From: Ptychodera flava
Taxonomy: Eukaryota > Hemichordata > Enteropneusta > Ptychoderidae
Direction: 5' to 3'
NCBI RefSeq assembly: GCF_041260155.1
Contig: NC_091930.1
Span: 38,723,937 to 38,787,936, forward strand
DNA: 64,000 nt
A program made the position numbers and the translations under genes. This document shows, in pieces, positions 4,718 to 53,714 of the stretch. The number at the start of each line of letters is the position of its first letter. The stretch's first letter is position 1. The notes beneath the pieces were generated by a model that searched no databases, was not told the origin of the DNA, and saw nothing but the letters and a program-made list of their open reading frames with translations.

Positions 4718-12859
<8,142 letters not shown>

Positions 12860-16543: not shown

Positions 16544-17996
16544 GTAAGTTCCCAACATGATACTGGCCACCACCACGAAAACAAAGTTCTTTTTATTTTT
16601 AAAGTCTTGCAAACCCGACCTCTTCTCGATCAACTATAATGTCAATGCCAAATAACCTTCCCACTCCTTGGCTATGGATAATTAAAGAGGCAGGTTGTTG
16701 ATCAGTTTTATCTTAAAGCACATTGACTGTGCTAAACTTTAAGTGGCGCTTAAAGGATTAAAATCACTAATAATATAGTCAATATGAACGACTTGAACCA
16801 GTGAACCAGTGAGCCTGCTCCTTTTCGTTTACATGACGACGGCGTAGATTACTATACAAAAAAAATCATAAAACACCTGCCCTACTATACACCTCTCTAA
16901 TTTTAGATTACGAGATATTAATTGGCAGAGGTATTTCTTGTTTTTGTTTTACAGTACAGACAGTAAAGAGAGGGACAGGAATAATACACAGAATATAGTT
17001 AAATGTCCTTCGACAGTATTGAACTGTGTGTCTTTCAGTCTGCTTTGTTGTTCTTTAACTTGAAAAAAAAAGAATTTTAAGGCTACAGCTAAGGCTGAAA
17101 ATTCTACAAGTCAATCAATTATTTCAAGCATGACATTTTGAGAAAGCCGTCCGATGTGAGACCGCTTTGGGTCTCAAAGTCCATCAAGGGTCTCTGACCT
17201 TTGAACAGAAGCTATTGTGTCAACACATACACTGTAAAAATAGCGGACGCTAGACGCGTCTTTACGCGTTCAAAATGTACATGTCGGTGTTCAAATTTGA
17301 ACGGCTAGTGTTCACATTGTTAACACTAGTGTTCATATTATTAACAATGATGTTCTAAGCCTGAACACGTAGTGTTAACAACCATCTCCTTCAAGTGTTC
17401 AAAAACTCAGCATCACAGAAATTTTACAATACTCTGAAACAGTTAACAATCTTTTGTGTCTTTTACTTTACAATGGCTATATTAACTTTACTACTGCCTC
17501 GCTGTCCGGTATACGTACACGGATTTTGGTATGACAAATTTCACACTAAGTGAAAAATATTTCCGGTCTACAATTGCTGAAAGCATGTTTTTTCTAAAAA
17601 AGGAAGTATAAAAAATAATTTTACGCGTTTATTTCGGGTTGAAATTTTGAAAATTTGAAAAGACAATCAGAAAACCACCATGAACGTTTAAATTTTAACA
17701 TCGGCGTGCAAGAGGCGTTCTACTTCTAAACACTTGGTGTTCAAGTTTGGTGCCTTTTCTTATCCCATGATGCATCAAAACGGAAGTTGCGACATTTTTC
17801 TTGTAAGCGCACGCTGAAGTCGTGATCGTGCGGAAACAAGACCAGAAAGGGTAAGTTTTCTCTCCAAAATAGTAAAAGGTTTTAGATTTTGAAGCATCTG
17901 TATTATTATTCTTTGAAATTAATTGTATTGTACTTTGAAATAGCTTAACTACGTGAAGAAACCTTTTTTCTTTCAGTGGCTGGTATACCAACAACT

Positions 17997-18141
17997 AGCT
18001 GTGAATACGCAGTGGTACTTTTGGCCATGGCGTATCGATCGATCTCTCTCGGGTCAAGGGTCATCGGAACACACTGTAGCGATAACCCTTGATCTGAGCG
18101 CGATCGATACGCCTTGCATAGTACCGCTGCGTAATCACAGC
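17997..18141. mobile_element. Short foldback MITE
   Basis: AGCTGTGAATACGCAGTGGTAC at 17997 onward pairs with GTACCGCTGCGTAATCACAGCT ending at 18141. Arms of about 62-70 bp flank a loop of roughly 13 bp, and both include GCGTATCGATCG. Confidence 0.7.
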
Positions 18142-18523
18142 TAACACATGTCTTTCAGTAGAGACAATCGCATGTAAAACATCAATTAAACATCGTAGAT
18201 TATACAATGTATTGTTTGGCTTTTAATCAGTTGATGACAAGAATAAGCAAATATTTTGTAACAGTATTGAAAAGAGGCTTCTCTTTTCCTTAAGCTAATC
18301 AGCCCCTTGTCTTTCATGGAAAGTCTCATCTCGCCATATTACCTATTGTTGCATTATTTTCAGGATATAAAACAATGGACTTAACTGAAAATCGAAGAGT
18401 TGTTACAGAAGAGGTAGCTGTCTGCAACCAAGCTTGAGAACCCCATTCATCTCTAATATCGATTTAAACTTACAAGGGTCAGTAACTGAATTTTGATAAG
18501 TTTCTGTATTTGTGTTCTTAATT

Positions 18524-18831
18524 AATCTAAGCTTTGGTAGCATGCTATGATCAACTATATGTTGCCGGAGAATAAGCTTTCACAGACGTGTAGTCTCCTT
18601 ATCAGATGCAAGGGTGGAATGAAAAATTAAAGCTGAAAGCGACAGAAAATTCAGAGTAAAAATGTCCAATCTGAATTACTGAATTTTCTTAAATTTCACT
18701 CTGAATTTTCTGTCACTTTCTGCTTCAATTTTTCATTCCCCCTTGCATCTGATGAAGGAGACTTCACGTTTTTGAAAGCTTATGCCCCTTTAACATTTAG
18801 TTGATCGTAGCCTGCTATCAAACCTAAGATT
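18524..18831. mobile_element. Foldback element with arms of about 135 bp
   Basis: The left arm (18524-18658) and right arm (18694-18831) are near-complementary throughout; they share GACAGAAAATTCAGAGT, AGATGCAAGGG and GATCAACTA motifs in inverted orientation. No coding capacity. Confidence 0.75.
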
Positions 18832-19184
18832 ATTTTTATTGTAGCTCAACACGTCTCTTGTTATTAGCAACTGGTTTTTAGCTTTGCTGTCAGCTAAATA
18901 AGTGGATGTTTAGCATTGTACTCAAATTTGTACATAACAAGGTTTTTCTTCAAAACAGCCTGTACGAATCCATTTAAATATTTGGAATTCAGGTTCCCAG
19001 GGATTACCCTAATCAGATATGTTTAAATTATGATGAAATATGCAAATTTATGATTTTGAGGCTGATTTGGCTATTTTTTTGGTAAAAATCTTCTTCTCTT
19101 TTACTGACGTCTTCATTATTGGTAAACATGTCACTAATAATGACCTTAGTCAAATTTGTGCTAATTGTGATGAAATCACTATGT

Positions 19185-19440
19185 GAAAAAGCCAGAATCC
19201 ATCAAGCATTGTTGTGGATTCCTCCGTGGATTCAATCAGAATCCAAGGGAATCCAGAGATATCCATTGTGGGTACTCAGGGAATCCTAAGGTATCCAATT
19301 ATGGATTCTTCTATATACGGAACACTTTTAGAATCCACAGCAGAATCCATTACAGCATTTTAATGGATTCCATAAGACAGTCTCCTGAATAATCCTGTGC
19401 AGGATTTCAATGGATTCTGCGTGAAATTAGTGATCATGGG
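19185..19440. repeat. GAATCC/GGATTC motif cluster, copy 1
   Basis: More than a dozen GAATCCA or TGGATTC words in both orientations within 250 bp, plus ATACGGAACACTT. A similar cluster is at 47630-47835. Confidence 0.55.
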
Positions 19441-20787
19441 AATCCACCCTCTTGCCTTAAATTTTCCATGGTACATTGCGTGAAATCGAATAAAATATCA
19501 CTGCTCTGCTGTCATTCCTTTTAAATTTTTGAATTTCTCATGAATCGATACTTACTTGAAACAGTAACCTGTACCTTTTGCACATTTTGTACTGTTTCAT
19601 CATTTTATTTTCATAATTGTATACCAAAATAACCTTGTATTCTGCTTCTAAACATGGCCTCTGTATCCTTTATGTTATTTTTGACAGATCCATTTCAAAA
19701 GGCCTTACTTCAGTGCAATTATCAACAATTACACTGGTAATAATGCATAGACATGCTTAGAAAATAGATATGGGGCAGTTAGTTCTATTATGGGGAAACA
19801 AACAGGACCAAGTTGATATATATGTACAGCGCGGATATTTAATATCTTTTCTGCATTCTTCCATTTTGTGTTTACAGAATTATGTGCAGGCATATTGCCA
19901 TAGGATGGTATGCACAATATCTACCATTATTGATTAAAATGTATTACCGGTATTCTCATGATATACTAGTATTCTTTCATTTTACTCATACTCACATGTT
20001 ACACTACACACATCAACAATTTAAGTTCAGACAACTGTTATGCAATTAAAAAAATAATGTCCTTTTTATTCACTAAATAATACTAATCCAATGAAATATT
20101 TACAATAATTGACACATGCACATGTGTTAAACAAAAGCTGCGGTTTCTGAAAAAAAAATCACAAACAATAATATAACCAGACTTTTTGAAACCAATATTT
20201 CAAGTCATTCATTGAACGTCTGTACAATTGTAGCAGCGATTTAAAAAAAAAGACTTGGCAAAAGACAATGGTAAAAATTTTGCCAAAAATACAATTATGC
20301 AAACTTCACCACAATTTGAAACAGTCTTACTGAGCTGTACCCTAAAAACCTCCACACCAACTTTCAAATCAATTGGAGTTGTGGTCTCAGAGAAGATTTC
20401 TTGACCAAGAATAGAAAAATCCCAAAAAATACAATTATACAAATAATCACTGTTTATGACTCGTCGGTGGAATAACATGAGTACAGCCTGTATCTAGTCA
20501 ATAAAATTCAAAAGTTGAGTGGTCTTTGTTCAAAACTAAAAATGCATCATTGAGCTTTTAGCAGAATCAAGAAAATGCAAAAACATATGCTTATACATTA
20601 AACATTGTCCTGTAATGAGTTGTCAGCGCTGTTGATATTGTCATTTGTCTGTATAACGGCTCATGGCCCACAGTACAATCAATTACCCACAATGCTGTTC
20701 GATTTGTACCAACGACGTTAGTTTTCTTGTAACTTTTTCAGTTCTGCATAAAAGCAATAATGTGAAGTCTCACGATAATTGATTAAT
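19441..20787. other. Non-coding stretch inside the large insertion
   Basis: AT-rich sequence with no gene, RNA or repeat structure that I can support. Confidence 0.5.
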
Positions 20788-22400
20788 TAGTCCCCGCGGA
20801 CGAAGTCCGGCGGGGACTTATAGATTGGGTCCCGTCTGTGCGTCCGTCCGTCCGTCCGTCCGTCCGTCCGTCCGTCATCAACAGTTTCTCAGACACTGCT
20901 GAACCAATTTCGTTCAAACTTGGCACAAAGGCATAGCACTATGACCTACAGATGCACGTCGATTTATTTTGTGATACGATCAAATTTGGCCGCGAGGCGG
21001 CCATTTTGTTGCGATTTTTCATGTCTGTGGACCATAACTCAGACATCCTTGAACAGATTCTGTTCAAACTTGGCACAAAGGCATAACACTATGGCCTACA
21101 TGTGCATGTCAAATTAGGTTGCGATACGATCCAATATGGGCGCGAGGCGGCCATTTTGTTTGCGATTTTTTGTTTCTTTGAACCATAACTCAAACATCCT
21201 CGAACCGATTCTGTTCAAACTTGGCACAAAGGCATAGCACTATGACCTACAGATGCATGTCAAATTTATGGGCGTGAGGCGGCCATTTTGTTGTGATTTT
21301 TCATGTCTTTGGACCATAACTCAGACATTCTTGAACCGATTCTGTTCAAATTTGGCACAAAAGCAAAACAGTATGCCCTTCATATGAACACCAATTTATT
21401 TCGTGAAATGATCCAATATGGCTGACAGGCGGCCATTTTTTTGCGACTTTTTCATGTCTTTGAACCGTAACTCAACAATCCTTGAACCGATTTTGTTCAA
21501 ACTTGGCACAAAGGCAAAGCATGTACTATGGCATGCATATGCATGTATCAATTAACCTTGCGATAGGATCCAATATGGCTGCAGAACTGCCATTTTGTTG
21601 GAATTTTGCATGTCTTTGAATCGTAATTCAAAGGTCATTACACCCATTTTGCCCAAACTTGGCACAAAGATCAAGCACTATGGCATACATGTCAATTTAC
21701 TTCGTGACATGTTCCAATATGGCTGCCAGATTGTCATTTTTTTCCAATATCGCTGCCCGATGGTCATTTTTGGATTTTTTCATGTCTTTGAGGCTTAATC
21801 ATATGCAAATATTCCTTAACCAATGTTGTTGAGACTTGGTACAAAGATAAAGTACTATGGCATACATATGCATGTCTACTAATTTGTGCTATGATCCATA
21901 TGGTTAATAGACAGCCATTTGATTTCAATTTTGGTGTGATTTTTTTATGTTTTTGAAACATAAACATAGATCACTGTCCCTCGATGGACTGATTTTGTTC
22001 AAACATGATACGAAGATAAAATACTATGGCTGCATTCTTGTGCACATTAATTTGTTTCATTATATGATTCGAAATGGCTGATGGCTGATTACAACAACAT
22101 ACCCGATCCCATAGCATTTCCAAAATTCCACCAAACCATGTGTATAGTATGTGCCATCATGACACTAGAGGCAGTGAGGGCATCGTTATGTGTGATGTAA
22201 TCAAAAGTTCCTTCAGTGGTCATTACCGGCAGAGATGAGTCATTTATTGAACGTTCCTCAGATAACTTTATTATGCAAGTCACAGGCCTGATGCACCCGT
22301 TGCATCAATGTCATTCCACAGCTACCTAGACACCAAAGATTATACAAAATGGACAAGCGGGGACTGTGTCATCAAACAATGACTTGTTTATTTATTAAAA
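20788..22400 (-). mobile_element. Pearl/Helentron-like element (HINE), copy 1
   Basis: Read on the minus strand: a 5' region containing GATGACACAGTCCCCGC (about 22345-22390), then roughly eight tandem units of about 150 bp (20880-22085; marker GGCGGCCATTTTGTT), then an (ACGG)n microsatellite (20840-20876), then a terminal hairpin (20790-20817; GTCCCCGC/GCGGGGAC with inner GGAC/GTCC) ending TA. This order (tandem core, ACGG tetranucleotide tract, terminal palindrome) is that of pearl elements described in bivalves and of other Helentron-derived non-autonomous elements. No Rep/helicase is present. The 5' limit is approximate. Confidence 0.65.
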
Positions 22401-24338
22401 GTACGTTGAAATATTGCAGTATAAATTCAAAGAAACCATTAAATAACCATAAAAGTCACATTCTTCAGGTACTACAAATGTCACAGTTTTGGGAAGCAAG
22501 TTATTACCAACTGAAGGGGTCATTCTCTGAAATAGTTAGCATGTAAATTTCTTTTGTCTTTTCTATTTGGAAAAAATCAATATCCTTTTGTTTCATAAAA
22601 CAGGTGCAACAATTCTCCCTACTTTCCATCACTTTATTCTGTATGGCTGAGGACACAATCAGTGGAAAATTTACAAAAATCCTTTCTCTTCTCTCAATCA
22701 AGCACAATTTTCTTAATCCTTTACAATGGGAATTGAGAAGAAAGGTGTTTTTAAAAGTACGTTCTCAGAATTTCTACACGTGGTCCAGGAATTTGTCTAC
22801 ACATGGGAGACATGGTAGACTTCACAGGGGAATCTACATTGGTACAAATCATGATGTATTGTGGGAAATCTCTAGTACTGTGATGGCCCACCATCCTCAT
22901 CCTCAGGCTCTGGTCTGATTGGGGCCACGCCCTCAATGCAAGGTAGCCTCAATATGCATTTCCTTTGATGCAAGTGTTTTTCCATAATGTACGCAGTTTC
23001 ACTTCTCTCTCTATCCCATGGCAAGTGTCTCCGAATAAAGGCACCACCCTTGCAACTTCTGTCCTGCTCGCTGTCCTCAGAAGAAACACACACAACTACC
23101 AAATGTCTTCAGCTTCATGCTAGTCCTTGGATAGCCCCGTTTGCGTCCTTCAATTTCTGTAAATAACGATACACAGAATAAATCATCAGAATTGTACATT
23201 ATCCATTTAGTTGTTTTTGTTTAAATCTGTGAATTTATAGACCTTTGATAATTCATTTGAAAGTACTTCATTAGACTAGAATGGTTAAAAGTTGATATGT
23301 ATGCAAGAAATTTGATTTCTGAATCTCACTGAAATGTTGATTCACTATACACTGGAGTCTATGAGAAAACTATGAATAATTTTTTTACAATGCTTAACAA
23401 ACACATTCTGTGCTTTCTGAGGTGTTTGACAATTGATACAAATGTACTTGATTCAAATAGGGTGTTTGAAGGTTCAGATGTGGACAACAGTAATGATATT
23501 GGAATTTCAACTAAACACTTCTATTTTCATGGTACTAGTGGTCAACAGGTCACTGTTAAATATTTTCCCTGACAAAACTTGCTATATCTTTAATATGTAA
23601 GTAATAGAAATTGTTCATTGCTCTCAGTGAGCTCGATTTACAATAAGACAAGCCTCAGAGTTGCCAAGGCAAGATGTTTATGTGGCAGATAATTATACTT
23701 TTGTTCAGATTTACACTTAAATGACTACCGAGAGTGAAATAATGCAGCGAATCATTTTATCTCCCAAAAAATGTTTTGAACACTTAAACTACTTTTTTAA
23801 CAATTTAAAGTGAACCCCAACCCATTCAAATTGTGCTGGCTGTAATAACTGAATGCTCCCTTGATGAATAAACTGGTCATCTATGTACTGTTGCACATCA
23901 AACTGACAAGTTTATGCCATAATATACAAATATGAAGATAAAAATGTTTTTTCACTGATTCATTGCCTATTTTATTATTTACTAAATATTCCTGTTTTTG
24001 TTAGGAGAGACTAACATCAATGTATCTCCAAGACACATGGTGTATGGTCGTGCTTCCACTATTAATTTTACAAAACATATCATCAATTAATGCTTCAGCA
24101 AATGGACCAAGTCTTTGTACGTTGGTCGAGAACTAATACAGTAAGACATATACGTTAGAATATTAAATCTGTCAAATTAGGATGGAATATTGAGGTAGAA
24201 ATATTTTTGTACCATGCAGCAGCTTTGACCTACAGTGCCTTGTAACATTTACATATATTGAACTAAAAAGAGGGCATGTCATGCTGGGGAATCACCCAAA
24301 TCAAAGACTGAACTGACTGCGTATGGTGCCAGTATGGA
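22401..24338. other. Non-coding stretch
   Basis: No gene supported. Short open frames on both strands lack family motifs or splice context. Confidence 0.45.
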
Positions 24339-25150
24339 TTAAAGGCAGGGGGACTCGGAGCCTATAAATACCCACTATCTCCCTGGGCATTCATAATCCA
24401 ACATGAGTGGCACATGGTAACAGCATCAACGAATGCTCCCGAAAATCTGCAGTTTTCAACAACCAAAGAGTAAATTAAAGCACTGTTCCAACATATTACT
24501 TTTGTGAATACTTGTGGCATCACCTTGTTGGTGAAATTCTCTCATTATATCCATTTTAAGTTGATTTTTGATGCGAAAACTGCTGCGATGCTGTGGACGT
24601 GTTCGAAGCATTCAAAGAACAATAGGGGAAAGCTTTCAAACAGCTGCCAATCACGAGGGGATGCACGATCAAACATTTTTGTGTCAATCAGATCGATACG
24701 ATGTCAACAATGAATAAACATTTGTACCACTGAGCCTTTTATACCATCCAGAAATTTCAAAGCTACAATTTTTTTACCCTGACATATAATACAGCGACCT
24801 TGCACAATATTGATCATTCCACTGCTTCTGTTGGGTTTTGTTGGTTTTTTAAATTCGCTCCGTGGCCCCAGTAGATTTTTTTCAATATGATACACAATTT
24901 GAATTTTTTTCAAGGTAAATTTAGTATATTTCTCTTGTCCAGTTTGATAGAGTAGACGTCGAGCCCGGCACTGTTGACTGAGATCAGGCTTGGGGTCATT
25001 TAATCTGTATGATCATCGTTCAGCATTTGGGTGATTTTTGTTTGGTCAAAGTAATCAGTAACAATGTACGCAAGATTCCTTATGTTGTTTTTGTCACCAT
25101 CATACACGTATACGAACGGTTTTCGATTAAACATAGGGCCAAAGTCCCTG
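24339..25150. mobile_element. Left arm of a long inverted repeat with TTAA terminus (Kolobok-like end)
   Basis: TTAA (24339-24342) followed by AGGCAGGGGG and about 800 bp that recur inverted at 46849 back to about 46440 and 44410 back to about 43960. Shared words include GAGTGGCACATGGTAAC and GAATGCTCCCGAAAATCTG. On the minus strand a peptide segment around GRCIICQGKKI, with KKPTKPNRSSGM upstream, is partly preserved in the other arm, hinting at old coding sequence of unknown function. Confidence 0.65.
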
Positions 25151-26331
25151 AAGCTACTATAGACATGGATACAAAATTAAGTATTTCCTGACTGTATGAA
25201 ATTATCTCACTTAGGTCATCCTAGGGATCTGTATACCAAATATTAAAGCTGTCTGACCAGCGGTTTTGAAAGAACAAGCAACTCAACAGTTGACAAAGCT
25301 CTGCTGTGTTATGTAGAGAATAACCTTTTGTGACACATGTATTGATGAAGAAGGTGGATATCTTTGATTAACACTGTGAGTTCTGTTGAATAAGTTGAGA
25401 CTGTACATACTCAGAGAAAGCACACTGAAGAGACAAATGTTTGAAACTTAAGAAGTTCAAGGTCATCAAAGCATTATAAGGAATCATGTAACTTTCATTG
25501 CACTGTTTACACAGATTGCATAATTGCTATAACCCTTTTCCTGCCAAGTCGGTGAAAATCCGCTTGAAATTCGGTGTAGCCAGAATCTAAGCACTGGTGA
25601 CCAGCATGTCCTTCAAAGTTCACAACTTTAAACAAAAAACTTATCAGTGCAGACTTTGTACATGTGTATGAAGTACATACCTCTCATATTCTTCTCAGTT
25701 GTTGGCATGCCTTTTCGTGTGACTCTGTCATTCCTTGGGGCACTACACTTTTCCTATTTGTTCAACGCCTAATAAATATCTCCACGGGACCTGCAACTTG
25801 CAAGGAAATAAATAAAAAGTTAAAAATCCTACTGTGAAAAATTAAATTATCTTAAAACACAGATGATGAATCATCAGATTTCACGTGACAATAATGACGA
25901 TGAATCACCATATTAACCTGACAGTCCATCAACACATATTTGAATCAGAAATATATTGACAAGCGTTTTCATTGCCTGAAAAGGCTAAACTTCATTGGAT
26001 TCACACTGCACTATGCATTCCTGCAGTATCTCAGAGCTGGTAGACTGTCAGACCATTGATGAAAAATTGACTCTTTTTACATCCATGGGCATATCAATAT
26101 CTAAAATGTGCATGTTGAAAGTAACACCACATTTCATTTTCAGCAGAAACAGAAATAAAATGACATATCATGTTTAGGTAAGATTAAAATTAATCTCATG
26201 TTAACTTAAGCCCCCACTAGCTGTATCTTCTAGCATTGTTTTTATGATTTTAACGTCAAGCCAAAATAAGTTTGTGAGAATGTTCTAATTTTGGTGATGT
26301 ATACACTTATTATTAACTTACACTGGGACTG
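25151..26331. other. Non-coding stretch
   Basis: AT-rich; nothing recognised. Confidence 0.45.
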
Positions 26332-26839
26332 TAGGTGGGTTTACACGTGTATTTTTTTGAACCTGAGGGAATCTGATTAGTCGTTCTGTAAATATTCCTT
26401 ATCAGCGATGTAAGCGATCTCACGTTTACACGTCATATACAAGGTATGAATTTAGTTCGGGTCAAGCGCCCTCAGCAATATCTGGGCTAGAGAACAATCG
26501 CTTGCTTGCAATGGCGGACCCACACATCATGTAGCTGCTGTCTACGCTCTTTTTTGTGTTCTGTCAACCAATCGAGACGCCTTCGGCGAAGAAATTTACT
26601 AGGAGAGAATATTGTTGGCCTCGCCCCGTCTGATGTCATTATCTATTTCATGTTAAGATGAAACACCTAGACAGACACCTACAATACAGACTCTTATACG
26701 GAAAATTGAGACAATCAAAGTTCCGGCCAATGCGACACTAGTAACACTGGATTTCCATGAACACGAATACACCACATTATGAGGCAATTGAATCAGTTGG
26801 CAGAGCATTAAATCAGGAAAGATCATCAAACAATTACAT

Positions 26840-27770
26840 AATCAAGTAACCAACAACGAAATACATGATAGCTCTGCTAGAAGTAATCTTAATAAACAAC
26901 ACATTTGAATTCAACGATGAATTCTACCGGCAAATATGGGGATGCTCTTATACGGAAATAATCTCGATGGGTTGTTCGCCAGAAATAGCAGATATTAGGC
27001 CTTCATTTCACGAGACAGAAATGAGAATAATACTGAAACGCAAACAACAAATACCGACCTGGCTGAGGTTCAGGGACGATGTTTTTCTGATTTTCATCGG
27101 AACACAACACGAACTCAATGAATTCATATCAAACATCAACAAAATGCATCCTACTTTCAAATTTTCGTTTGAAAGCTCCTCTCAAGAAATCACATATTTA
27201 GACCTGACTATCTACAAAGGTCGTCGGTACAACAAAGAGAATATTCTCGACATCAAGACACACACAAAACCAACAGATATTTTCCAGTTCTTACAAAGAA
27301 ACTCATGCCATGCCATCGGCAGCAACATTCAACGGTCTGATCAAAGGTGAAACATTACCATACATCAGAACACGTAACAACGAAACCGATTTTACACAGA
27401 AAGTCACACAATTTAGTGAAAAAAAATTAGTGAAAAATTACAAGATCGACAATATAAAATAATGAAATAGAACGCATTACAGAGAGACAGATCATAAAAG
27501 CAGGAAAAGACTGCTTGAACAACAAAAAGAAACCAATAACGCCACCAACAATACAATAGTCTTCATAACAACGTATAGCCCGTACATCGACACGACAAAA
27601 ATCAAGAAGGCCCTGACATAAAACTGGAGTGAACTTGAAAAAGACGAAAACACACAAAAAAACTGTTCCAAAACCAACCAATAATCGCATATAGATGGAA
27701 CAGAAATATAGGCGACACACTTATAAGCGCCAGACTTCATCGGATACTTTCTGTAACCATACTACCGTAT
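26840..27770 (+). mobile_element. Penelope-like element, degenerate RT fragment
   Basis: The translation around 26866-27350 gives FEFNDEFYRQIWG, WLRFRDDVFLIF (the F-DD box of RT), HPTFKFSFE, YLDLTIYKG and KPTDIFQFLQRNSCH, the characteristic late-RT motifs of Penelope-like elements. Further degraded RT/thumb similarity (such as ITTYSPYIDTTKIKKAL) continues to about 27770. The N-terminal RT and the GIY-YIG endonuclease are not seen. It carries several breaks and is surely inactive. Its position inside a Harbinger-like TIR pair suggests nested insertion. Confidence 0.7.
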
Positions 27771-27899
27771 ACAGGCGACATACGGTTTCTATTCCCACTA
27801 TATCGTACCCCGCCATGGCTAAGCGACATTTTACATAAAACAGCCAAACATGATGTACACTTATATTATACACAATATCATACACAAAACGCAAACAAC

Positions 27900-28268
27900 C
27901 CAATATGAACGATGTGTGGAGTTGCTTTCCCTTTACTATCAGTTGCTTTCCCTTTACTAACAACTCATCGTAAAATGGCATCGTTTTTCTAGCTCTGCCA
28001 CTATGACGGTTGTTGTCGGACACGGACTTGAACTGAGCTTGCAACCGTTTGATTTGTTGTGGCATTGTTCCGCTGTCCTCTCGGTCCTCTCGAGTCCCTT
28101 CTCCCTGGCCTTGGCAGCGACGTCTTCATACACTTGCCGATCCCTCGACGTGCCGTCCATCATACGGATGACGTTTTCGTCTCTCCAGATTGAAATTAGT
28201 AGCCTGATCTCTTCCTGTGACCAATTGTTGCCGCGATCGCGAGAGCTTCTTACTTGAACACCGTCCAT
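27900..28268 (-). pseudogene. Myb/SANT-like DNA-binding domain protein, degenerate
   Basis: From an ATG at 28268 the minus strand reads MDGVQVRSS, then NNWSQEEIRLLISIWRDE, VYEDVAAKARE and RTAEQCHNK. The homology continues in another frame with IKRLQAQFKSVSDNN and MPFYDELL. The tryptophans, the RT-Q-KIK segment and the closing PFYDELL are the pattern of the Myb_DNA-bind_4 (trihelix-like) domain found in Harbinger accessory proteins and their domesticated relatives. The shift of frame near 28045, the lack of an adjacent transposase and the flanking terminal repeats make this a transposon remnant, not a host gene. DNA binding would be its family role; activity is unlikely. Confidence 0.6.
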
Positions 28269-28503
28269 TGTGGTAATGACCGAACCGAAGACAGGATATA
28301 GTTCGGCGTTTAGTTCGGTGTTCTGGTCACACGTGTAAATAGGCCATTGTTTAGTACGGAGCACCGAACCTGGACCAGCCCTCTGACACCGAATTAATTT
28401 AGTTCTTTGTTAGTTCGGTGTTGTCTGTTCACACGTCCAACTGACACAGGTTTATATTTATTCCGGTGTCTACTCCGGACTTAACTCCCACGTGTAAACC
28501 CCC

Positions 28504-36070: not shown

Positions 36071-36149
36071 TTAACCCTTTGAACCCGGCTCAGACATAAA
36101 TGTCTGATGACGTCATAGAGTACCAGGGGGTCAGGGTGCAAAGGGTTAA
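36071..36149. mobile_element. Miniature TTAA element (79 bp)
   Basis: TTAACCCTTTGAACCC at the left and GGGTGCAAAGGGTTAA at the right, with no coding capacity. Confidence 0.65.
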
Positions 36150-36969: not shown

Positions 36970-37311
36970 CAGTGTTCGAAATTTGTGGAAAAAATCAACC
37001 AGTCACCAGGACTGGTAACTTCAAAAAGTTGCCTGTCCTGCCAAAAACTTACCAGTCCTGATACTGCGATTGCTTTTTGTGCCTAAGTATTTTTGTTATG
37101 CGCTGTTGAGTAGGATGAATTTACGGGAAAGAAAACTGTCTTGCCATAAAATTTGAATGGGAGCCCAGAGAAAAAATAGCAGACATAGTTTTAAAGAAGA
37201 CTCCCCACGCTAAGTCAACCTGTCCGCCAGACTGGTAACTTTTTTATTTTACAAGTCCTGCAGAAAAACAACCAGTCTCGGACTGCCGGACAGGTGTTAT
37301 TTTGAACACTG
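36970..37311. mobile_element. TIR MITE (342 bp) with 7-bp target duplication
   Basis: CAGTGTTCGAAAT and ATTTTGAACACTG are inverted ends, flanked by TTAATGC at 36963-36969 and 37312-37318. The CAGTGTTC terminus is shared with the element at 31190, so the two may be related. Confidence 0.75.
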
Positions 37312-39540: not shown

Positions 39541-39815
39541 CATACCGGTGTGAAATGTAATGCAGATCTCCTGGTTATGTGTCAAATAAGCAATTTTTGT
39601 CGCAAGTCATATCTTGTTTTTCAGAAAGTCGAACTCACAAGAGGGCAGATCGTCTGTGCAGCCGACAAGAACACAACTGTCATGATACCGGCTACCAAAT
39701 ACTATCACAAGATAGGCTGTCGTCTACTGACTCCACACATTTGTCATTTGAATGAACGATGTGTGACGAAAAGGGAAATATCCCATGTGTAACTGCTGTG
39801 GCGATATCGATGACA
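39541..39815. repeat. Direct repeat of about 280 bp, copy 1
   Basis: Nearly identical to 42639-42920, sharing CAAATAAGCAATTTT, AGAGGGCAGATCGTCTGTG and AAATACTATCACAAGATAGG. Confidence 0.75.
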
Positions 39816-42550: not shown

Positions 42551-42552
42551 GT

Positions 42553-43025
42553 GCTATTTACACCTTGAGACAATGGAGCAATGAATCAGAGCCCTGCAAG
42601 ACTTGCCATTGCCTGACCTATCACTATTTTCTTCATGACATACCGGTGCAAAATGTAATGCAGGTCTCCTGGTTATGTGTCAAATAAGCAATTTTGGTCG
42701 CAGGTCATATCTTTTTTTCACAAAGTCGAACTCGCAAGAGGGCAGATCGTCTGTGTAGCCGACACGAACACAAACTGTCATGATACCGGCTACCAAATAC
42801 TATCACAAGATAGGCTGTCGTCTACTGACTCCACACATTTGTCATTTGAGTGAATGATGTGTGACGAAAAGGGAAGTATCCTATGTGTAACTGCTGTGGC
42901 GATATCAATGGCAACCTTCCTGATATGTTAATGACATATGGCTATTTACACCTTGAGACAATGGAGCAATGAATCAGAGCCCTGCATGACTTGCCATTGC
43001 CTGACCTAGCTATTTTCGTCATGAC
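42553..43025. repeat. Nested direct repeats, including copy 2 of the 280-bp repeat
   Basis: A block of about 75 bp (GCTATTTACACCTTGAGACA onward) at 42553 recurs at about 42950, bracketing copy 2 (42639-42920) of the repeat at 39541. Confidence 0.7.
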
Positions 43026-43959
43026 TGCAGCAACATATACTGTGGTATACAAAATGCAAGCTTTATTTCAGTCGAAAGATAAAAAGACAGTTGCAAAATG
43101 ATAAGAATTCAAGGAGGGATATGTGTCTACTACAGTGCGGGGACTCCAAAGTGCAAACGCTAAGCCCTTCAAGATGGTTTCCAGATGGGTATATAGAGTG
43201 AACGTTAGAAATGTGAGCCCAGGGAAGTGATTATATGTTTCTCACTATACATCCAGCTATTCTTTAACACATATAGTCCTTTTCAATTTGTAGAGACTGT
43301 AAGTTGTCATCCTCAGTGTTGTTTTACAATCTTTACCTCACACGTAAAATTATGCAACTTTATTGGATTGCATAAAGGTACATAATTTTAGTGAGCCATT
43401 AAAGGTATGGAAATCGATCCCAGGGCCTAGGAGTGGCACATGTAAAACAGTGTGTATCTTTGCGTCAGAGGTGGAATAAATCTATTTATCCACGAAATCT
43501 TAATCCCGACTGCTATGTTTGTACGCACATAGAGCCAGTCGACGTTAGGGACACAAAAAACAACACGAGGAACAAACAGGCAGTGGTTTTGAACAAAATC
43601 AATGTACCCGGTACTTCACCGATGTCTGTAACTCAGTACATGAAAATATTCGTAGCTTGACGCACTTTGAACATAGCTCGTAACAAGTGACAGCGGAAAG
43701 CCCACAGAACTACGTGTACAACTATAACAGCCACTCATGTAGTTGGCGCTCAGTGAAGATTTTTCGATCAACAACTTTGACGGATGATGGACTGACCTTT
43801 TCTACCGCAATTGTTATCTCCCTCGATTCAGCACAAAATTTTCGTATGGACTATTGATGCGGTGTTTACAGTTGTTACGTAGTGGTAAATCCTAGTCGTA
43901 TTTACGACTGCTGCCTAAACAGTCACTGAATAAATTTTGCACGCATTTACGAGCACTGG
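43026..43959. other. Non-coding stretch
   Basis: Nothing recognised. Confidence 0.4.
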
Positions 43960-46849
43960 ATATTACTACCGTTTTTAATCGAAAACCGTCCGTATACGCA
44001 CATGACAGTTGTGACAAAAATAACAACAAAAAATCTGGCGTACATTGTTACTGCATTACTTTGACCAAAAAATCACCCAAATGCCGAACGGTGATCATAC
44101 AGAACTCTGCTGCAGGTTTCTGGACTAAACGACCCCAAACCGACCGAGTCCCAGTCAACTGTGCCGGGCTCGACGTCAACTCTATCAGCGTCAACTCAAA
44201 CTTTCACTCCAGAAAACTTTACCCCACAAACTGGGAATATACTGAAATTTACCTTGAAAAAATTTCAAACTTTGTATCGTATTGAAAAAATCTTACCGGG
44301 CCACGGAGCAAATTAAAAAACCAACAAACCCCAACAGAAACAGTGGAATGATCATTAGTGTGCAAGGTCGCTGTATTATATGTCAGGGTGAAAAAATCTA
44401 GCTTTGAAATTTCTGGACTGTACAAACGGCGGGGCAGAATTAGACAAGATTACGACCAATGTGTTACCGCCGATGGTACATAACGTACTGTTGATAGCAG
44501 GTAGTTCGGTGTCCAGTGAGAACACGATTCCGAATATATCACGGCTGTTGATTTGAGCTGCCTCCGATCGAAAATTTTCAACACAAAGACATGATATCAA
44601 TAATTTTGCGAGATTATAAGTACCCGCTGTCTTCTCGCCAAATAGCTGCGATCAAGATCATTATGATAGAAGCAATTGACCGCCGAACACCTGCTTGCTG
44701 ATCTTATACACAACGAGTAAAATTGATTATTCCTGCTGAGAAATACGACAGCAAATATTGCAATGTGAATTTCTTACTATCTTCCTCGCAATGGTTTTGC
44801 AACTGTGTTTATTTTATCACGGTCACTGGACCATTTCTGACGATTTTTACTAACAAAGAATCAGTTCACACTCATCGACGGAACACATTGCAAAGACGTT
44901 CACAAAATTGTCATCACATTCATCACATTACCGTAATCCCCGTTTCAAAGACGTAGGAAATGTATAATGATTTGTTTATCTTGAAAAATCCCGAACTGAA
45001 GCCTCTAAATACAAAATGATTTTTCTTCTGAACAACTTCCCGACAACTTTACAATCACACTCTGGTCATCACATATGGCGGTTGTAACCGTACATGTGCT
45101 GCTGCCAATGGAGAATCAAAAGACTTCAAATCAACAGTCAAAACGTACGGAAAAAGTATCAATATCCAAGCAGTGTAAAACAATAATTTTGATAAGGTCA
45201 ATTTATTGTATATTACGTATATAAAAAATCTCCGGACCACTCGGAACAGCGTAAGATAATGATCTCACTCATTCGAATACTACACTCACACGGTAGGGTA
45301 AAAATATGGGAACTCAGATCGTTATATACTGCTTCCGTCAAACGAGTCCGCTTATCTAAAGACGGCAAAAATGGTAAAAAAGACGGTAAAATGACCATAA
45401 TTATTATTGCTTGTCTCTGTAAATTTTGCCGACTATTCGTTAGTAGTTGTCGAATTTCTTGAGTTTGTCCGAAAGCTATTTCAGTGAATGACGTAAGTTT
45501 CAAGACACCCGAGTGCGAACGCAATATCGATATGGAGATAGCAAAATCAGTCACAGACAATCGAGGAAGAACATAAGAGTCTATTAATCTGCGATTTACT
45601 TCATCCTAGGTTACCATGAAAGTAAAAAAGGTAATGTTGTGCCCTGGTTGGGAAAGAAAAGTTGATTAAGTTTTCAAAAAAACGTCAGCTAATACTCGAA
45701 CAATTTAGTAAAAAACTAGCTCAGAAAAACGTATAGAGAAGAACGACATCACCGATCACGGCGATCTTCAGATCTTTTATCATGTTTCAGTCTGAACGGT
45801 CAACATTTGATGCTATAATCTATGTCAAGTGTCTCTTTTTGGTCAAATCCGACAGAGCTGAATCAATCACGATTTAGTTTCATCGCCCCGACCCGACAGG
45901 AAATAATGAAGCTCATGGGCACGCACCTGTATACATGTAATCGTGGCATGAACGTATCCAATGCCCGTCCACTGCATGAGCCATTGACCGTGCATCGCGA
46001 GCAAACAACGGTTTTGGATGTCACGAGAGCATTTTTTTTCGCAGTCTGTGAGCGGTTGAGTGGTTTTGGTAGGCTGCATACATGTAGATCGGAATCGAGT
46101 TGATTTCGGCGGAAAACAGTTAGAAAGTAGTTTTTCGTGCTCCGTCCAAATTGGATCCGCATGTTGCCGGTTTTGTCCATGGTAATCAGCAGAGCTGTGG
46201 TGGGAGGCCGTATAACGCCGGGAATACACGTCATCGTACGCAGAGCTATGCCACAACATACTTCCAAAGGCGATCTATCGTAAAATATCGTACTGCAGGT
46301 CAACAAAAACATCACCCATTCATAGGCCTACAGGTACACATATCAACGAACAAAAAGGGAGAGGCAATCTGCTTGAAACCATGAAGTAGTCCGTTTGTGT
46401 CTGAATTCACTGAGGCGCGTGTTCAGTAACCGTTGGTCAAGTTTTTACGTTCAGTAGTAAGAATCGTTTATTCATTGTTGACATCGTAATCGATCCGATG
46501 TACACAACAAATGTTTGATCGTTTGCACCTTTGCGCGTCCCCTCGTGATTGGCAGCTGTTTGAATGCTTTCATCTATTGTTCGTTGGACGCTTCGAACAC
46601 AGCATCGAAGCAGTTTTGGCATAAAAAATCAAATTAAAATGGAAAAAATGAGAGAATTTCGCCAACAGGGTGATGCCACAAGTATTCACAAAACGTAATA
46701 TGTTGGAACAGTGCTTTAATTTACACCATGGTTGTTGAAAGATCCAGATTTTCGGGAGCATTCGTTGACGTTGTTACCATGTGCCACTCATGTTGGATTA
46801 TGAATCCCCAGGGAGATAGGGGGTATTTATAGGCTCCCCCTGCCTTTAA
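43960..46849. mobile_element. Right arm of the long inverted repeat, interrupted, TTAA terminus
   Basis: 46440-46849 is the inverse of 24339-24780, and 43960-44410 is the inverse of about 24740-25150. The right terminus is CCCCCTGCCTTTAA (TTAA at 46846-46849). The 2-kb segment 44411-46439 between the halves has no counterpart in the left arm. It contains a 150-codon minus-strand frame (45863-46315) that I cannot assign. Confidence 0.6.
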
Positions 46850-47629
46850 ACCCTTTCTTATACAAGTGCATACAGATGCATATAGGCACCACCACTGACA
46901 CCATGTTTACACACCTTTATGCACTGCATAAAGGTGCGTAAAGGAGCTGACCAACTTTATGCAATTTATGCAATTGCATAAAGAATGTTAAATTTGGATT
47001 TTCATCCAGTGAGCTAGTAAAGGTCACTTCCACATTTCTGCGATTTTCTTAGTTTTTTCGGCAATGTGACGCAAGTTCTTGAGAGTATAGCTCGTCGTCA
47101 CGATGACATATTTGCTTGGTTTTATTACACAGATGGTAATGAACGATTCCGTCCACTATATACCGTCTCAAATTGTAACGAGCTCGAACAAATCCTGCTA
47201 TCGATAAACGTAAACTTGCAGCAGGAGAGGGGTCAATTTGATCGGGGGAGGGGGTTTCAAGCTGATAAGTATAAACGCAATCCATGTCTTGACTCAAATG
47301 ATTGGTCATGAAAGGCCATAGTCCTCTATCGTTAACGTTGAAGTTCTTGACGTACATTAAGTTTTGGAATTTTGTTTTATTTGTATGTGTATAGGATCTT
47401 TAGGAAAAAGCGTTTTTGACACTGCCAATGTTGATTGCAAAACGAATTTACAAGTGATAATATTTTTAGGTGTTTCAACTTTTGCAACGCTTTCACTCAG
47501 CATAAAAAAGTGTCTGCAGTAGTCATACTTTCCGTTACACTGGCTAGGCTAGTATCCATCATAAATACTTAATGGCTTCTCAAAATCTAGCCAGGTCTGT
47601 GTTTTTTAGACCCACAATGCATTGTGACA
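46850..47629. other. Non-coding stretch
   Basis: Nothing recognised apart from repeated GCATAAAGG words at 46928-46980. Confidence 0.4.
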
Positions 47630-47835
47630 CTAGAATCCATTAGTATCCAAAATGGATTTTGGCATGTATTCCCCGCAGCCTTAGTTTTTGCTGGATACTG
47701 GGGGAATCCATTATGTATTCCGGTGCTGGATTCTCAGTACTGGATAATGATGGATACTCTAATGGATTCTGCTGTATACTGTAAGAATCCATCAAAATGG
47801 ATATTGCTATAGGTCTGTGGATACGGAACACTTCA
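47630..47835. repeat. GAATCC/GGATTC motif cluster, copy 2
   Basis: Same word composition as 19185-19440, including GATACGGAACACTT, in the same orientation. Both are followed or preceded by an AGGGATTACC...TTATGATGAAAT segment (19000-19045 and 48048-48092). Confidence 0.5.
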
Positions 47836-48109
47836 CATGGTGAATATTCAAATTTTTATATTTCATGGCAATTTTGTCATTTTTGGTCAAAAATCTTTAA
47901 AAAATCTTCTTCAAACTGCTAATTTAACAGCTTTGATATTTAGGACATAGATCTCTACTGATAGCCTTTTTCAGATTGTTCAAATTATGCAGAAATTTGC
48001 AACTTTGTATTTTTAAGACATTAAAAACATTTCAGATATTTTTAAGATATTAGGGATTACCAGAATGTGATATATTCAAGTTATGATGAAATCTACGTTT
48101 TCTTTTATT

Positions 48110-49079
48110 TTAAGGTAGCGGTAAAGGCTAGAGCGTCAGTTATAAACTTCAATAAAACTATTAAAATATAAAAGTAGTCAACATTCTCTGTGGAATAGAA
48201 AAACTAGACATTTGGGGTCAAAGGCATTGCAGAGATATAGCCTGTTGAAACTTCTGAAAAAGTGACCAAATAAGAGGAAGTTGGGGAGTCCTTAGTGTAT
48301 TAACTATGGTAGAGGTCCCCTAGCTTTTAAAAAAATGTTTGAAAAGGGAAAGTCATTTTTTGCTGTTTTTCAGGAAAGTTTGACAAGGCAGTGCTTGCAT
48401 TCAGAATGCATGACTGCTATTGTAAATGCATTTTTAGATTCTTTGAGTGTCAAAGAGGTGTCAAAAGTGAGATTAACCAAAAAGACTGCTCTGTGACTTC
48501 AAAAGAGGGGTGCAAATATGGCTTGTTTCTAACATTTTTGACAGAATAACAGTTTTCCTACATAATTTTATGCCAATTTAATCCAACCTTTGAAATGAGA
48601 TATGGACATGGAATTTTTACAGCCCATTAACAAGGTTACAGACAAGATGACTATGGCACAATTTTCCTGTATTTGTACTTTTTGAAAAATCACATTTTGA
48701 AATTTGAAAGACTTTTTAAATAATTTTTTGATATGTAAGCCCATGTAAAATCATGAAAACAAATTTTATTTACAAATCCTGCCGTACAAATCTTACAATT
48801 AATAGTGTCAACATATTTATAACTAATTTGGTAGTATTAAGTACTATCCAATTATTATTAAATTCAAATATGTAAAACAATGTGAAAAATTACATTTTAA
48901 TATTTACTGGTGTCATATTTCAAAACCATGGCAGCAAATATACAATTTTTATATTCTTTGGAGAAAGTATTAAGTAAGGGAGTTATCCTGAAAACTAAAT
49001 ATCTTGATTCTAACACTTGAAACTTGACATTAACTCTGAGAAAAGAATTCGTGCAAAATAGCCTTTACCACTACCTTAA
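48110..49079. mobile_element. TTAA-flanked TIR element (970 bp)
   Basis: TTAAGGTAGCGGTAAAGGCTA at the left and TAGCCTTTACCACTACCTTAA at the right form 21-bp inverted ends with one mismatch. No open frame of note. Confidence 0.8.
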
Positions 49080-49787
49080 GAGCGATTTTTAAAATGTTTG
49101 GTAAAAAATATTGTATAAAAATTAATAGCAGGGTACACCAGAATTATAAAGGTCTTTACGAATATGTTTTTAATTTCTGAAAAGTAGATTTTTGAAATGT
49201 CACCGATTTATTTCAGGGTTTATTTAAATATATTACAAACAAACAAACCTTTTTGTTTGTGAAGGACTTCGTTGGACAAGGAAATAGGTTTTATCCTGCC
49301 AAGGACCCACTTTCCCCACTTTCTGCATGTTGTGCCTTACTTTGACAATTTGACAACTTGACATGTTGTGTTTACTTAAATGTGGACAACTATATACCAT
49401 GTGCACTAGAGAAGCCTTGACTAACTTTTTTCTTCAAAATTTACAATTGTCTACACAAGAGGAAATGTCTTTAAGAAGCCATCTTACAAAAATGGAGTAT
49501 GCATTTCATACATATACGTGTTTTCAACACAATAAGTAAGCAAATTGTGAGCTTTTTCAGATGGGTTTTGTACGTTTTAAACAAGTATAAACATAAAACG
49601 TAATCCACAATATTTAAGTAAACCAGTTTTGTCATTACTTTGTTCATATTTTTTAAACGATCTACATTGTTTATATGGATTTTTATTGCTGAAGTTTTTG
49701 ATAGGAGGGTGTTAACACCGTTAGTAGTTTCCTCTGACAAACTTTGCATACAAAGTAGCAATGTTTATTTGCCAATTTTACATGAGA
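49080..49787. other. Non-coding stretch
   Basis: Nothing recognised. Confidence 0.4.
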
Positions 49788-50619
49788 GAAAATGCCGAGA
49801 GAGTTTGACCGGTTGACCTCGCTGTTAATTTTATGCAGGAAATTACAATAACAATGCTTGGTCGAATGACGCAGTGCCTTGAGGGTGGGATCACCAGTGG
49901 TATATGGGGAGGAGTACCTTCCCGATGGTGATAAGTGGTGCAGATTACCGTCGCCTAGGTGACTGGCGTATACGCGTGCCAAAAGACACCTATGGTTGAT
50001 TTCCTGTTGACCAGTCGGATGGCAGAGTTGCAAATACCTGGACTGAACCATTTGGTTTTTTGTGGGTGTCGGTGGTACTTTGACAATATAAGTAAAAATG
50101 CACATATATTGAGTTTATTGTCTTGTTTATGAGCGGCCAGTATTTCCAACAGCATAAATTATGTGCATTTGCCCTTGAAGGAATAAATAATTTTCGAATA
50201 AAACATCGCGAATGTAACTACATTCCTTAAGCTCGACGTACACTTAAGTGCCCCAAAGAACCATGAAATCGCCCGACTTTCGATTGAAGAGATGAGTTTT
50301 GCCAAACCGCGTATACAGAAAAAGTGGCAGATGACTTTATTTTTAGAATCATAGACAGTATAGCGAGATGTAAAAAATGTGAAACAGGCTCCCCACCTAA
50401 CTATCCTAAATGTTTTTGTGTCGAGTTTGTGTTTGATTCGTTTCGAAAATGTGTTCCTACATACTTATCCGATTGTTTGTGTTAATGAATGTTTGTTTCG
50501 CTTTGGATATTTGTAGAGAAGTTTGGATTAGTGTGTACGGTAATGTTTTGTTTGTGTGGGGAAAGCTTAAGGCGAGACGCAGCCGGACCTATGTTGTTAC
50601 AAAAGTTGATAGAGTCGCC

Positions 50620-51440
50620 CTTTGACGCTTGCGTTTCGAAACCCGAGTGTGGTTTCTCATCAGTCGCAGTGTAGATTCTTTCCTTAGTTTGTGTTTGTGA
50701 AAATTTATTTTAATGCATTTTAGTGGTCTTGCTTTCCGATTAGCGAGGCAAGTATATTAATTTTGGTCACGTTGTGAGTCCGTTTGGTGGTTCGGTTTGT
50801 TTGTTCTATATTTCTTTACTTCGGTAAATTTTGTTTTGACTGGTGTGCCTTTTAGATTTTTGCGGAGGTTTGTGAATTTTTAGGCAATAAGTACCACTGC
50901 GGGGTACGGATTTTATGTTTATTGGATCAAGATACTTACAAGTATCCTGGTTGATGTGCTTGTTCTCGTACATTTTAATTAATAGTTCATTTACTTTGTT
51001 TACTGTTTGTTCTGGCTTGTTGTATAATACTGAGTGTTACGTAATTACCTTTCGCATTCGAGTACGTAATCGTTTGTGTTGACAATAACGAAAAACCGAC
51101 CCTTGTCGAAGGGTTATTTTCCCAAAATTTGTCCATTGTTTGTAAGCTGGTTTATCGCGATTCTTTTGGCACGCGACATGTTTTGTTTCCTTGTTTGAAA
51201 GGGTATCTCTAGAAGTGCGAGTTTAGAAGCTTCAGATAGCTTTCAAGTTTTTGTTTTTTTGTTATTCGTGGAGTCCAACTTGACTTTTCTTTGAATTGGT
51301 GTTGTTGCGATTGTTTGTGTCTCACGATGTAGCGTAGTCACATTATACGACTTTATTTGTTGAAATCCTGAGGTGGTTTTATTCTGTTTGGCTTTGTTGG
51401 TGTCCGAATGAATTTAAAGGCTTTTGCCTAGTACTATTTT
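50620..51440 (-). mobile_element. Penelope-like element, N-terminal RT fragment
   Basis: The minus-strand translation in mixed frames shows the early part of a Penelope-like reverse transcriptase: SSWTPRITKKQKLESYLK (the WTP box), DKGSVF, then NKHINQDTCKYLDPINI and the GTYCL..KIHKPP box. It is heavily decayed, with many breaks. The fragment ends close to a hammerhead-like motif, as expected for elements of this class. Confidence 0.65.
50624..50663 (-). ncRNA. Hammerhead-ribozyme-like motif in a Penelope-like element
   Basis: Minus strand, in order: CTGATGA core; stem II GAAACC/GGTTTC with a 7-nt loop; GAAA core; a two-base-pair stem III closing a CAAG loop; then the cleavage site, which reads GTC. 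Order and spacing match hammerhead ribozymes known from Penelope-like elements. Stem I is not convincing (the first pair would be A-A), so activity is doubtful in this copy. Confidence 0.5.
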
Positions 51441-52534
51441 TCGGAGTTTCATAGTTTGAGCGATGATAGGTTGTTGTTGAATTTCATGTTGTTGTCGGCT
51501 TTTCTTTGGAAATAGCTGATTTATTTCCACGGCCATGTTTTCTGTTACGTTACTGTGATTGTTTATTTTGTATTTAATGTTGTGTTTCAGTTGTTTGTTA
51601 TGTGTACGATTTTGTTATTTCTTTTAAGTGTTTGTGTGTTCTATGTCATCTTATCGTATTTTTTGGTAGTTCCCTTTTGGAGTATTTGGTGGCCCTGAAA
51701 AGGGCCGCTTGGTATGGGTTTTTGTTAGCGCTTGGCGCGTTTGTTTTGGCGATAAGCCTAGCTTTTTATGCTTCTTTTCGCCGATTCGATGTGCTTGGTG
51801 AGTAGGTGTTTGCCGCCTTCTTGTCACTGTGTGTGCTTACATGGACAGTCTGCATAGCCCTTGAATGTGGTCTCGATTTGATCAAACTTACAATTTAGGA
51901 GTATATATCAAAACTGATAAATGATTTATGTGATTCCTGTAGCTATAGATAGGCTACATTCAGGACGGGCAGCGACGGGCAGTAATTAGTAGGCAAAACA
52001 GGTGGTTTTCACCGTGGGCAGAACTCGGTGCAATGATACTGAACATTAATAGTAAGCCTGTCACCTTGAAGGTAATGCTGTAGGTGAAACAAGGACACAC
52101 GATGGTACAAACAACACCACAAGTGAAACGTACACACAGAATACACGCGTTCCTACGTTGTGCCCACCCGTGGCCACGCGATTAAAATATGACTGATACT
52201 GCTGGATAGTGTTAATTGGGTCGGTAAACAGTCAATTAATAGTTTAATTGACTACCTGGGTGATTGGCAGGTCGTGTCCAACGACGCATATGCAAAGCAG
52301 GCCAAAAGACAAAAGCCCCCAAAGTTATTGACAGCTGGCCAGGGGTCACCATGAATACGTAATGAAGCTGCACTACGCAGAAACTGCGTAGTCAAGCCCT
52401 TCTTAACCGGTCAAACTCTCTCGGCATTTTCCGGCATGTATAGTAAATTATTGTATTTTACCGTATAAATGTTTTGTGCATTTTTAGAATAAAATAATTC
52501 TACTGAATATCAGTGGTCTGTAATATTATTTCAA

Positions 52535-52906
52535 GGCTTGAACACCCCCTGAACGCCCAAAATTAAAGGTGTTCAACAAGCGCGCATCATGTGTTCTAGC
52601 CTTTAACACACTTATCGTTGAACGGCGTCCATGCGTTCAAAAAGTGTTACAGCCCTTTGAACGCGTAAATGCGTTCAATTTTTTGAACACATTTCATGTG
52701 CAACGAGTGTTCTGATATGGAACACCATGGTGTTCAATATAATGTCTGATGAACACGTAGCGTTCAAAATCTGCTCACATGTGTTCAAAATTTGAACGTT
52801 GGTTGAACACGTAGTGTTAAATTTCTGAACGTCTAGACGCGTTCAAAAAGTGTTACAAAAAGGCGTTTAATTGGTGTTCTATCCTTTAACACTTAACTTT
52901 ACAGTG
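52535..52906. repeat. Right subterminal repeat array of the 35.7-kb insertion
   Basis: Dense GTGTTCAA/TTGAACAC/GCGTTCAA words in both orientations run up to the terminal TTTACAGTG. The left counterpart is at 17230-17410. Such arrays are transposase-binding regions in CACTA elements. Confidence 0.65.
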
Positions 52907-53714
52907 TAGACACTACAAAACATGGCACGGTGCTTGTATTACGTTTGTACCACTATACAAAGGCGCAGGTTCTGGAAGGCGTCTCGTGTACTGAAACTCG
53001 GAGGATAGTTTCTTGACCTTTTAACACCCGGTATACTCTGGGAGTGTCTTGAATGAACGAGAAATGGGCCGACGTTATCGAACGGGCTTGTTGACTTCGG
53101 CTCCATCTATTGGTCAATTTCTTCATAAATTCTATTCGTTTATGCAAAGCTTGACAACAGATAATTTCATTACGAATATCGACGGATAGTGAGTCAACAT
53201 CGATTGAAGATTAAATGTTGTGCACCCTGCAGATCCTACTGCATTTTTCTAATATATATGTTTATTCCCAAATTAATGGCAAATCAAGTCAAATCTACAA
53301 AACTGTGAAAATATCAAGTAAACAAAAAAGTAACAGGTATTTGTCTGAAAAAAGTAGTCATTTTGCCCCAAAGAATAGAAAAATATTGAATAATATCATC
53401 AACATACGCTTATGTATTTTGGGTTTCGCTCATTTGGTTTTTGCTGAGTCATCCTAGTCAAAATTCGATTATTTAGAGGAAAATAATAAAAATATATTAC
53501 AGCACGGGTACACCAACCTGTTAGTCAAGAAAATATTCCATTGAAGCATTATTTTTTCTTTATTATTCTTTTTTTAAATTAAACTTTAACGTTAAATGAC
53601 TCAGCAAAAACAAAATCAGCGAAACCCAAACACATGAGTAGGGTAATGAAAACGGCAACAAATACATCAAATTTCGGCTAAGGGCACTTACATTTTTATA
53701 TTTCTCACACTCAG

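Follow-up and report, generated by a model that had tools for sequence, protein, structure and literature searches.

Intron 1 of a carboxylesterase gene in the hemichordate Ptychodera flava (gene C) spans ~37 kb, against ~2-3 kb in its paralogs B and D, which raises the question of what fills this intron and how it became so long. We analyzed a window of 64,000 nucleotides (contig NC_091930.1, positions 38,723,937 to 38,787,936 of the forward strand, assembly GCF_041260155.1), within which all coordinates below are given and in which the paralogs lie on the + strand from ~4.7 kb (B), ~16.2 kb (C) and ~60.8 kb (D). We found that intron 1 of gene C contains an inserted unit of 35,677 bp (17230-52906) whose target was TA. 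This insertion is a real transposon-bounded unit with CACTA/EnSpm-like (CMC) ends and an unusual present-day length, and its 35.7 kb probably derive for the most part from later insertions nested within a transposon that landed there.

With the introns of the paralogs at hand, an insertion of this great size, bounded by transposon ends, could be tested against its empty site with unusual clarity. Homology between C and B ended at ~17.1 kb and restarted at ~52.96 kb, and intron 1 of C was colinear with intron 1 of both B and D once 17230-52906 was taken out. The two flanks of the insertion, fused with the insertion omitted (17000-17229 joined to 52907-53120, 444 bp) and aligned to the paralogs, gave one alignment across the junction (E = 1e-50 to D and E = 2e-34 to B). 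The empty site of gene B (5841-5854, CAACACGTAGACGC) contains one TA only and reads CAACAC-G-TA-GACGC, whereas the filled site of gene C consists of CAACACATA, the 35,677-bp insertion and then TAGACAC, that is, CAACAC-A-TA-insertion-TA-GACAC. As the uninterrupted site of gene B has a single TA, the flanking TAs represent a 2-bp target-site duplication, and an insertion with TACACTG ends and no duplication was ruled out. About a dozen bases differ or are extra at the junction in gene D, which supports the place of the insertion but not the exact TA; the 2-bp duplication therefore rests on B. These results confirmed that the TA-flanked insertion inside intron 1 of gene C is real, as the sequence-only reading of this locus had proposed from the interrupted colinearity of B and C.

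We further focused on the ends of the unit, which carry a 9-bp terminal inverted repeat (CACTGTAAA on the left, TTTACAGTG on the right) and thus show the 5'-CAC..GTG-3' termini of CMC elements. The 9-mer CACTGTAAA had three exact copies in the window, which is weak evidence alone, and 39 matches with at most one mismatch compared with 26.1 expected, a number reached by 2 of 100 shuffles; we judged the end repeats to be real because they fit the empty-site breakpoints and are accompanied by subterminal arrays. The motif GTGTTMA/TKAACAC was found eight times in the first 600 bp of the insertion and ten times in the last 600 bp, whereas 500 dinucleotide shuffles per end gave means of 0.43 and 0.40, respectively, and a largest count of three at either end. 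Between these two stretches, 34.5 kb of the insertion contained 20 such sites, and the flanks contained 11, and a scan at 50-bp steps detected no 600-bp stretch with more than two sites away from both ends. Dense arrays thus occur at the outer ends only, which indicates that complete inner ends are absent. We accordingly rejected the idea that two complete CMC elements flank the unit as a composite, since there is no internal subterminal array, although inner ends may have been lost by deletion. Together with the TA duplication (published lengths are 2 bp in CMC miniature inverted-repeat transposable elements [MITEs] and 2-5 bp across CMCT, the wider group), the termini and the direct and inverted subterminal repeats agree with the CMC-like anatomy suggested earlier. 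Scans of viral contigs with the end motif and with the array motif returned 0 and 0 matches.

This anatomy can be set beside several described systems. CMC-NA MITEs and ENS1_Cis, a CACTA element of Ciona savignyi, are described with 5'-CAC..GTG-3' ends, short inverted repeats and a 2-bp duplication (PMC6004678); the insertion has the same end type, short inverted repeats and duplication length, the ends being compared by description and not base by base, but the MITEs in that account measure 116-422 bp compared with 35.7 kb here. Plant CACTA/EnSpm elements are characterized by short terminal repeats, several hundred bp of direct and inverted subterminal repeats and a 3-bp duplication, and one such element of 16,523 bp contains a 5,550-bp satellite array (PMC8978399). 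The insertion has the short terminal and subterminal repeats in common with them and differs in its 2-bp TA duplication and in that no Transposase_21 was found in it. A TA duplication is also reported for ESTA, an EnSpm-like group of rust fungi within CMCT, whose lineages mostly end in CA..TG and duplicate 2-5 bp of target (PMC12730594); ESTA, however, is fungal and defined by its transposase, whereas the insertion has none detected. The giant KDZ, EnSpm and Sola-1 elements of Ectocarpus are described as containing nested unrelated transposable elements, with a transposase that is often pseudogenised or missing (PMC12477816). They resemble the insertion in length, nested elements and the lack of a detected transposase, but insertions shared among their copies imply mobility at giant size, while a single copy is available here. 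Other enlarged elements include Sly1-1 of Neurospora, an 11,534-bp CMC element (PMC4592977), and the En/Spm families of 16-20 kb in Chondrus (PMC6431247). In Repbase, the class of a non-autonomous element is assigned mostly from its terminal sequences and its duplication (PMC4455052). A literature search with the end sequence yielded no transposon report among the matches listed, and we found no published report of the insertion's family in a search that was not exhaustive.

To characterize the coding content, we used Pfam scans of 10 open reading frames (ORFs) and of 18 translated chunks (stops written as X) covering six frames of 17228-32229 and 33700-52909. The sole family above cut-off was Myb_DNA-bind_4 (27960-28409, - strand; E = 3.5e-10 for the ORF), and this Myb/SANT domain probably belongs to a Harbinger-like passenger. 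No Pfam transposase or cargo gene exceeded the cut-off in these ORFs and frames (32230-33699 lay outside the six-frame scan, and no animal CMC protein served as a positive control), in line with the earlier failure to recognize a transposase. CMC transposases are DDE enzymes with C(2)C and H(3-4)H motifs, and such an enzyme can be lacking from a non-autonomous copy. A similar scan of the gene C exons in shorter chunks recovered COesterase in each of the three + frames, the shortest match covering 31 residues. A codon-usage scan whose training set comprised 886 esterase codons detected no strong exon in the insertion, where the best score was 10.5 compared with 11.1, 15.4, 15.7 and 18.9 for four esterase stretches outside the training set. 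Searches with Rfam at the gathering threshold and with ARAGORN gave 0 matches. Three weaker candidates were not retained: FAD-oxidase_C in the ORF at 49686-50114 (E = 0.038) and TMEM72 in that at 22547-22915 (E = 0.07), both under the cut-off, and a Penelope-like reverse transcriptase fragment read by eye in the ORF at 26850-27347 (+ strand, within the Harbinger-like unit), which had neither Pfam nor PDB support. Just inside the left array, a GG-GTAAGT near 17850, a CAG acceptor at 17974-17976 and a later acceptor with an ATG at 18375, interrupted by a hairpin, together resemble by eye the possible beginning of an element gene, with promoter, spliced leader and start exon.

The interior of the insertion proved to be a mosaic. 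Using self-comparison (the 25 longest of 77 pairs) and inverted-repeat scans, and leaving out before counting the self, mirror and array-to-array rows, inverted pairs with both arms in arrays and low-complexity arms, we identified 11 repeat modules, which account for 15,181 of the 35,677 bp (42.6%) when the spans between matched ends are included (Table 1); the hAT-like element lies inside one of these modules and adds none to the count. The names hAT-like, Harbinger-like and Penelope-like were given from the ends or from reading by eye, and a family search stands behind the Myb domain only. Within the window, nesting was demonstrated for the hAT-like element: CATATT lies on both of its sides, and other units of the array in which it sits keep the uninterrupted site. 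This element inside the array is also the only one for which the order of nesting was shown. The surrounding GTCCCC...GGGGAC repeat combines a palindromic end, a GTCC-rich microsatellite and a tandem array of varying length. We preferred two independent inverted copies of this repeat over a single foldback with long inverted arms spanning 20787-33861, as no duplication of at least 4 bp was visible by eye at its outer ends. The remaining ~20.5 kb of the insertion lie outside all modules and include one block of 10.1 kb (33862-43973).

Table 1. Positions of the ends and internal features of the insertion in intron 1 of gene C
Feature	Position	Strand	Basis or remark
Left TA of target-site duplication	17228-17229		Single TA in gene B empty site
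Left terminal inverted repeat CACTGTAAA	17230-17238	+	At empty-site breakpoint
Left subterminal array, 8 GTGTTMA/TKAACAC sites, mixed orientation	17287-17743		Site count vs shuffles
Possible start of a former element gene (inward-pointing promoter, 5' exons)	17765-18413	+	Suggested by eye
Palindromic MITE-like hairpin	17996-18143		75% self-complementary
Palindromic MITE-like element, 316 bp	18520-18835		80.5% self-complementary
Repeat unit, GTCCCC...GGGGAC end and degenerate ~150-bp tandem array, first copy	20787-22393	+	Self-comparison
TTAA-AGGCAGGGGGA repeat, shorter copy	24336-25131	+	Inverted match to 43974-44430 and 46451-46852
Harbinger-like passenger, 13-bp inverted repeat GGGTTTACACGTG, Myb/SANT domain	26337-28501	-	No clear target-site duplication
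Two short hairpins, MITE-like	29414-29460, 29557-29694		Self-complementarity
GTCCCC/150-bp array unit, second copy, inverted	30391-33861	-	Self-comparison
hAT-like element, 1.57 kb, ends CAGTGTTCTCACCAG / CTGGTGAGAACGCTG, 6-bp duplication CATATT	31190-32764		Sits in 150-bp array of second unit
TTAA-AGGCAGGGGGA repeat, longer inverted copy	43974-46852	-	Middle 44431-46450 (2.0 kb) unmatched in shorter copy, included by position only
970-bp element, TTAA at each end, inverted repeat GGTAGYGGTAAAGGCTA	48110-49079		Inverted-repeat scan
2.64-kb element, perfect 27-bp inverted repeat GAAAATGCCGAGAGAGTTTGACCGGTT, T/G-rich interior	49788-52431		No clear target-site duplication
Right subterminal array, 10 GTGTTMA/TKAACAC sites, mixed orientation	52539-52892		Site count vs shuffles
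Right terminal inverted repeat TTTACAGTG	52898-52906	-	At empty-site breakpoint
Right TA of target-site duplication	52907-52908

Of the two options left by the sequence-only reading, a small element swollen by nesting thus received direct support, namely 11 modules inside the unit, a nested insertion for which both a duplication and an empty site were seen, and no recognizable cargo gene, whereas a giant carrier received no positive support. In the history that we favor as probable, the DNA transposon with CMC/CACTA-like ends that occupies the TA in gene C arrived there most likely after C split from B and D, since it is absent from both. Cut-and-paste transposition by a transposase that recognized the 9-bp end repeats and the subterminal GTGTTMA arrays would have brought the element in and duplicated the TA, as its anatomy and the described CACTA elements suggest. 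The element may then have served as a landing pad on which MITE-like hairpins, array repeats, Harbinger-like and hAT-like units and others accrued, taking it from an ordinary size to 35.7 kb, and it is now probably dead or reliant on an enzyme made elsewhere. Most simply, nesting explains the size better than carried genes do, and nesting on a large scale is ordinary genome behavior. The locus would then be a readable case of intron growth, from ~2-3 kb (B and D) to ~37 kb (C), by one landing followed by nesting.

Several observations weigh against this history. The ~20.5 kb assigned to no passenger, with its 10.1-kb block, leaves room for an element that was already large at the outset, and with a single copy the passengers could predate the jump. 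Inverted pairs, counted by the same test throughout, numbered 3 in the left flank (17.2 kb) and 1 in the right flank (11.1 kb). For the insertion, the test gave 30 pairs in the left part (its first 17.2 kb) and 2 in the right part (its last 18.4 kb), but 25 of these 30 were between the two array copies; with array pairs excluded, 5 and 2 pairs remain in the two halves of the insertion (35.7 kb together) and 4 in the flanks (28.3 kb together), to which the insertion adds the pairs of the TTAA repeat that cross between its halves. The insertion is then only slightly richer than its flanks, a weak excess, and hairpin density alone is therefore no proof of nesting. The codon-usage scan also scored 8742-8795, probably a real exon of gene B, at only 8.1, so that the scan can miss exons that are short or that differ in codon usage. 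Finally, the superfamily has no transposase behind it: CMC-like ends are established, while membership in CMC, as far as the sequence goes, is not proven.

One alternative is that the 35.7-kb unit moved with most of its present content in one transposition through its CMC-like ends. Such an animal unit of ~35 kb, loaded with various other transposons as a mosaic and with ~20 kb of unclassified DNA, and mobilized in trans through intact ends, would fit a clean insertion that left a single TA duplicated and both termini intact, and an interior of which 20.5 kb belong to no module, and it has a precedent in the brown alga Ectocarpus, where nested insertions in KDZ and EnSpm giants are described as generally fixed among copies (PMC12477816). 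We nevertheless consider it unlikely. The Pfam and codon-usage scans revealed no recognizable cargo gene, transposase or strong exon, and within their limits the only recognizable carried sequence was the Myb/SANT domain of the Harbinger-like unit; moreover, the sizes given for the superfamily in the compared literature are smaller (at most 15.2 kb for EnSpm in Ectocarpus, 16-20 kb in Chondrus, 16.5 kb for a plant CACTA element and 11.5 kb for Sly1-1). If it did transpose whole, the unit would be longer than any EnSpm/CACTA size in that literature, and if other copies had the same interior, it would represent a giant animal DNA transposon with other transposons as cargo. Considerably less plausible is an element from a different superfamily that inserts at TA (Tc1/mariner, ISL2EU or PHISTA-type Harbinger) and has CACTG-like ends by coincidence. 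ISL2EU, PHISTA and Harbinger elements are characterized by a PHIS-type transposase and a TA or 3-bp duplication. TA duplications also occur in Tc1/mariner and ISL2EU elements. They are likewise known in PHISTA (PMC12730594), and the insertion contains a Myb/SANT domain, no transposase to decide the matter and no DDE domain found in the Pfam scans. However, the CAC..GTG ends with several hundred bp of close direct and inverted subterminal repeats fit the published description of CACTA, and the Myb domain is bounded by the separate inverted repeats of its own unit. An assembly join or rearrangement mimicking an insertion is the most improbable explanation, since the window contains no N and both breakpoints show TA, matching ends and matching subterminal arrays; it draws on two 1-bp coding deletions in gene C that, judged without reads, could be assembly errors.

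Relative to gene B, these two deletions each change CCC to CC (one near 16355 in exon 1, the other near 53724 in exon 2), and gene D is open there too. If both are real and not small assembly errors, gene C may be decaying, possibly as a pseudogene, and growth of its intron would then have been under little constraint.

We also noted several minor features. A 280-bp segment occurs as a direct repeat at 39540-39818 and within 42553-43025 (3.1 kb apart, 94%), and its second copy is flanked by an 87-bp direct duplication (94%). Within the element with the 27-bp inverted repeat, 50001-52000 is T/G-rich and strand-asymmetric, with a GC skew of ~0.2 and an AT skew to -0.36. At the left edge of the window, positions 1-252 appear by eye to be the end of another esterase copy. 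Immediately right of the insertion, still in intron 1 of gene C, lies a 213-bp palindromic stretch (53418-53630) that is 68% self-complementary.

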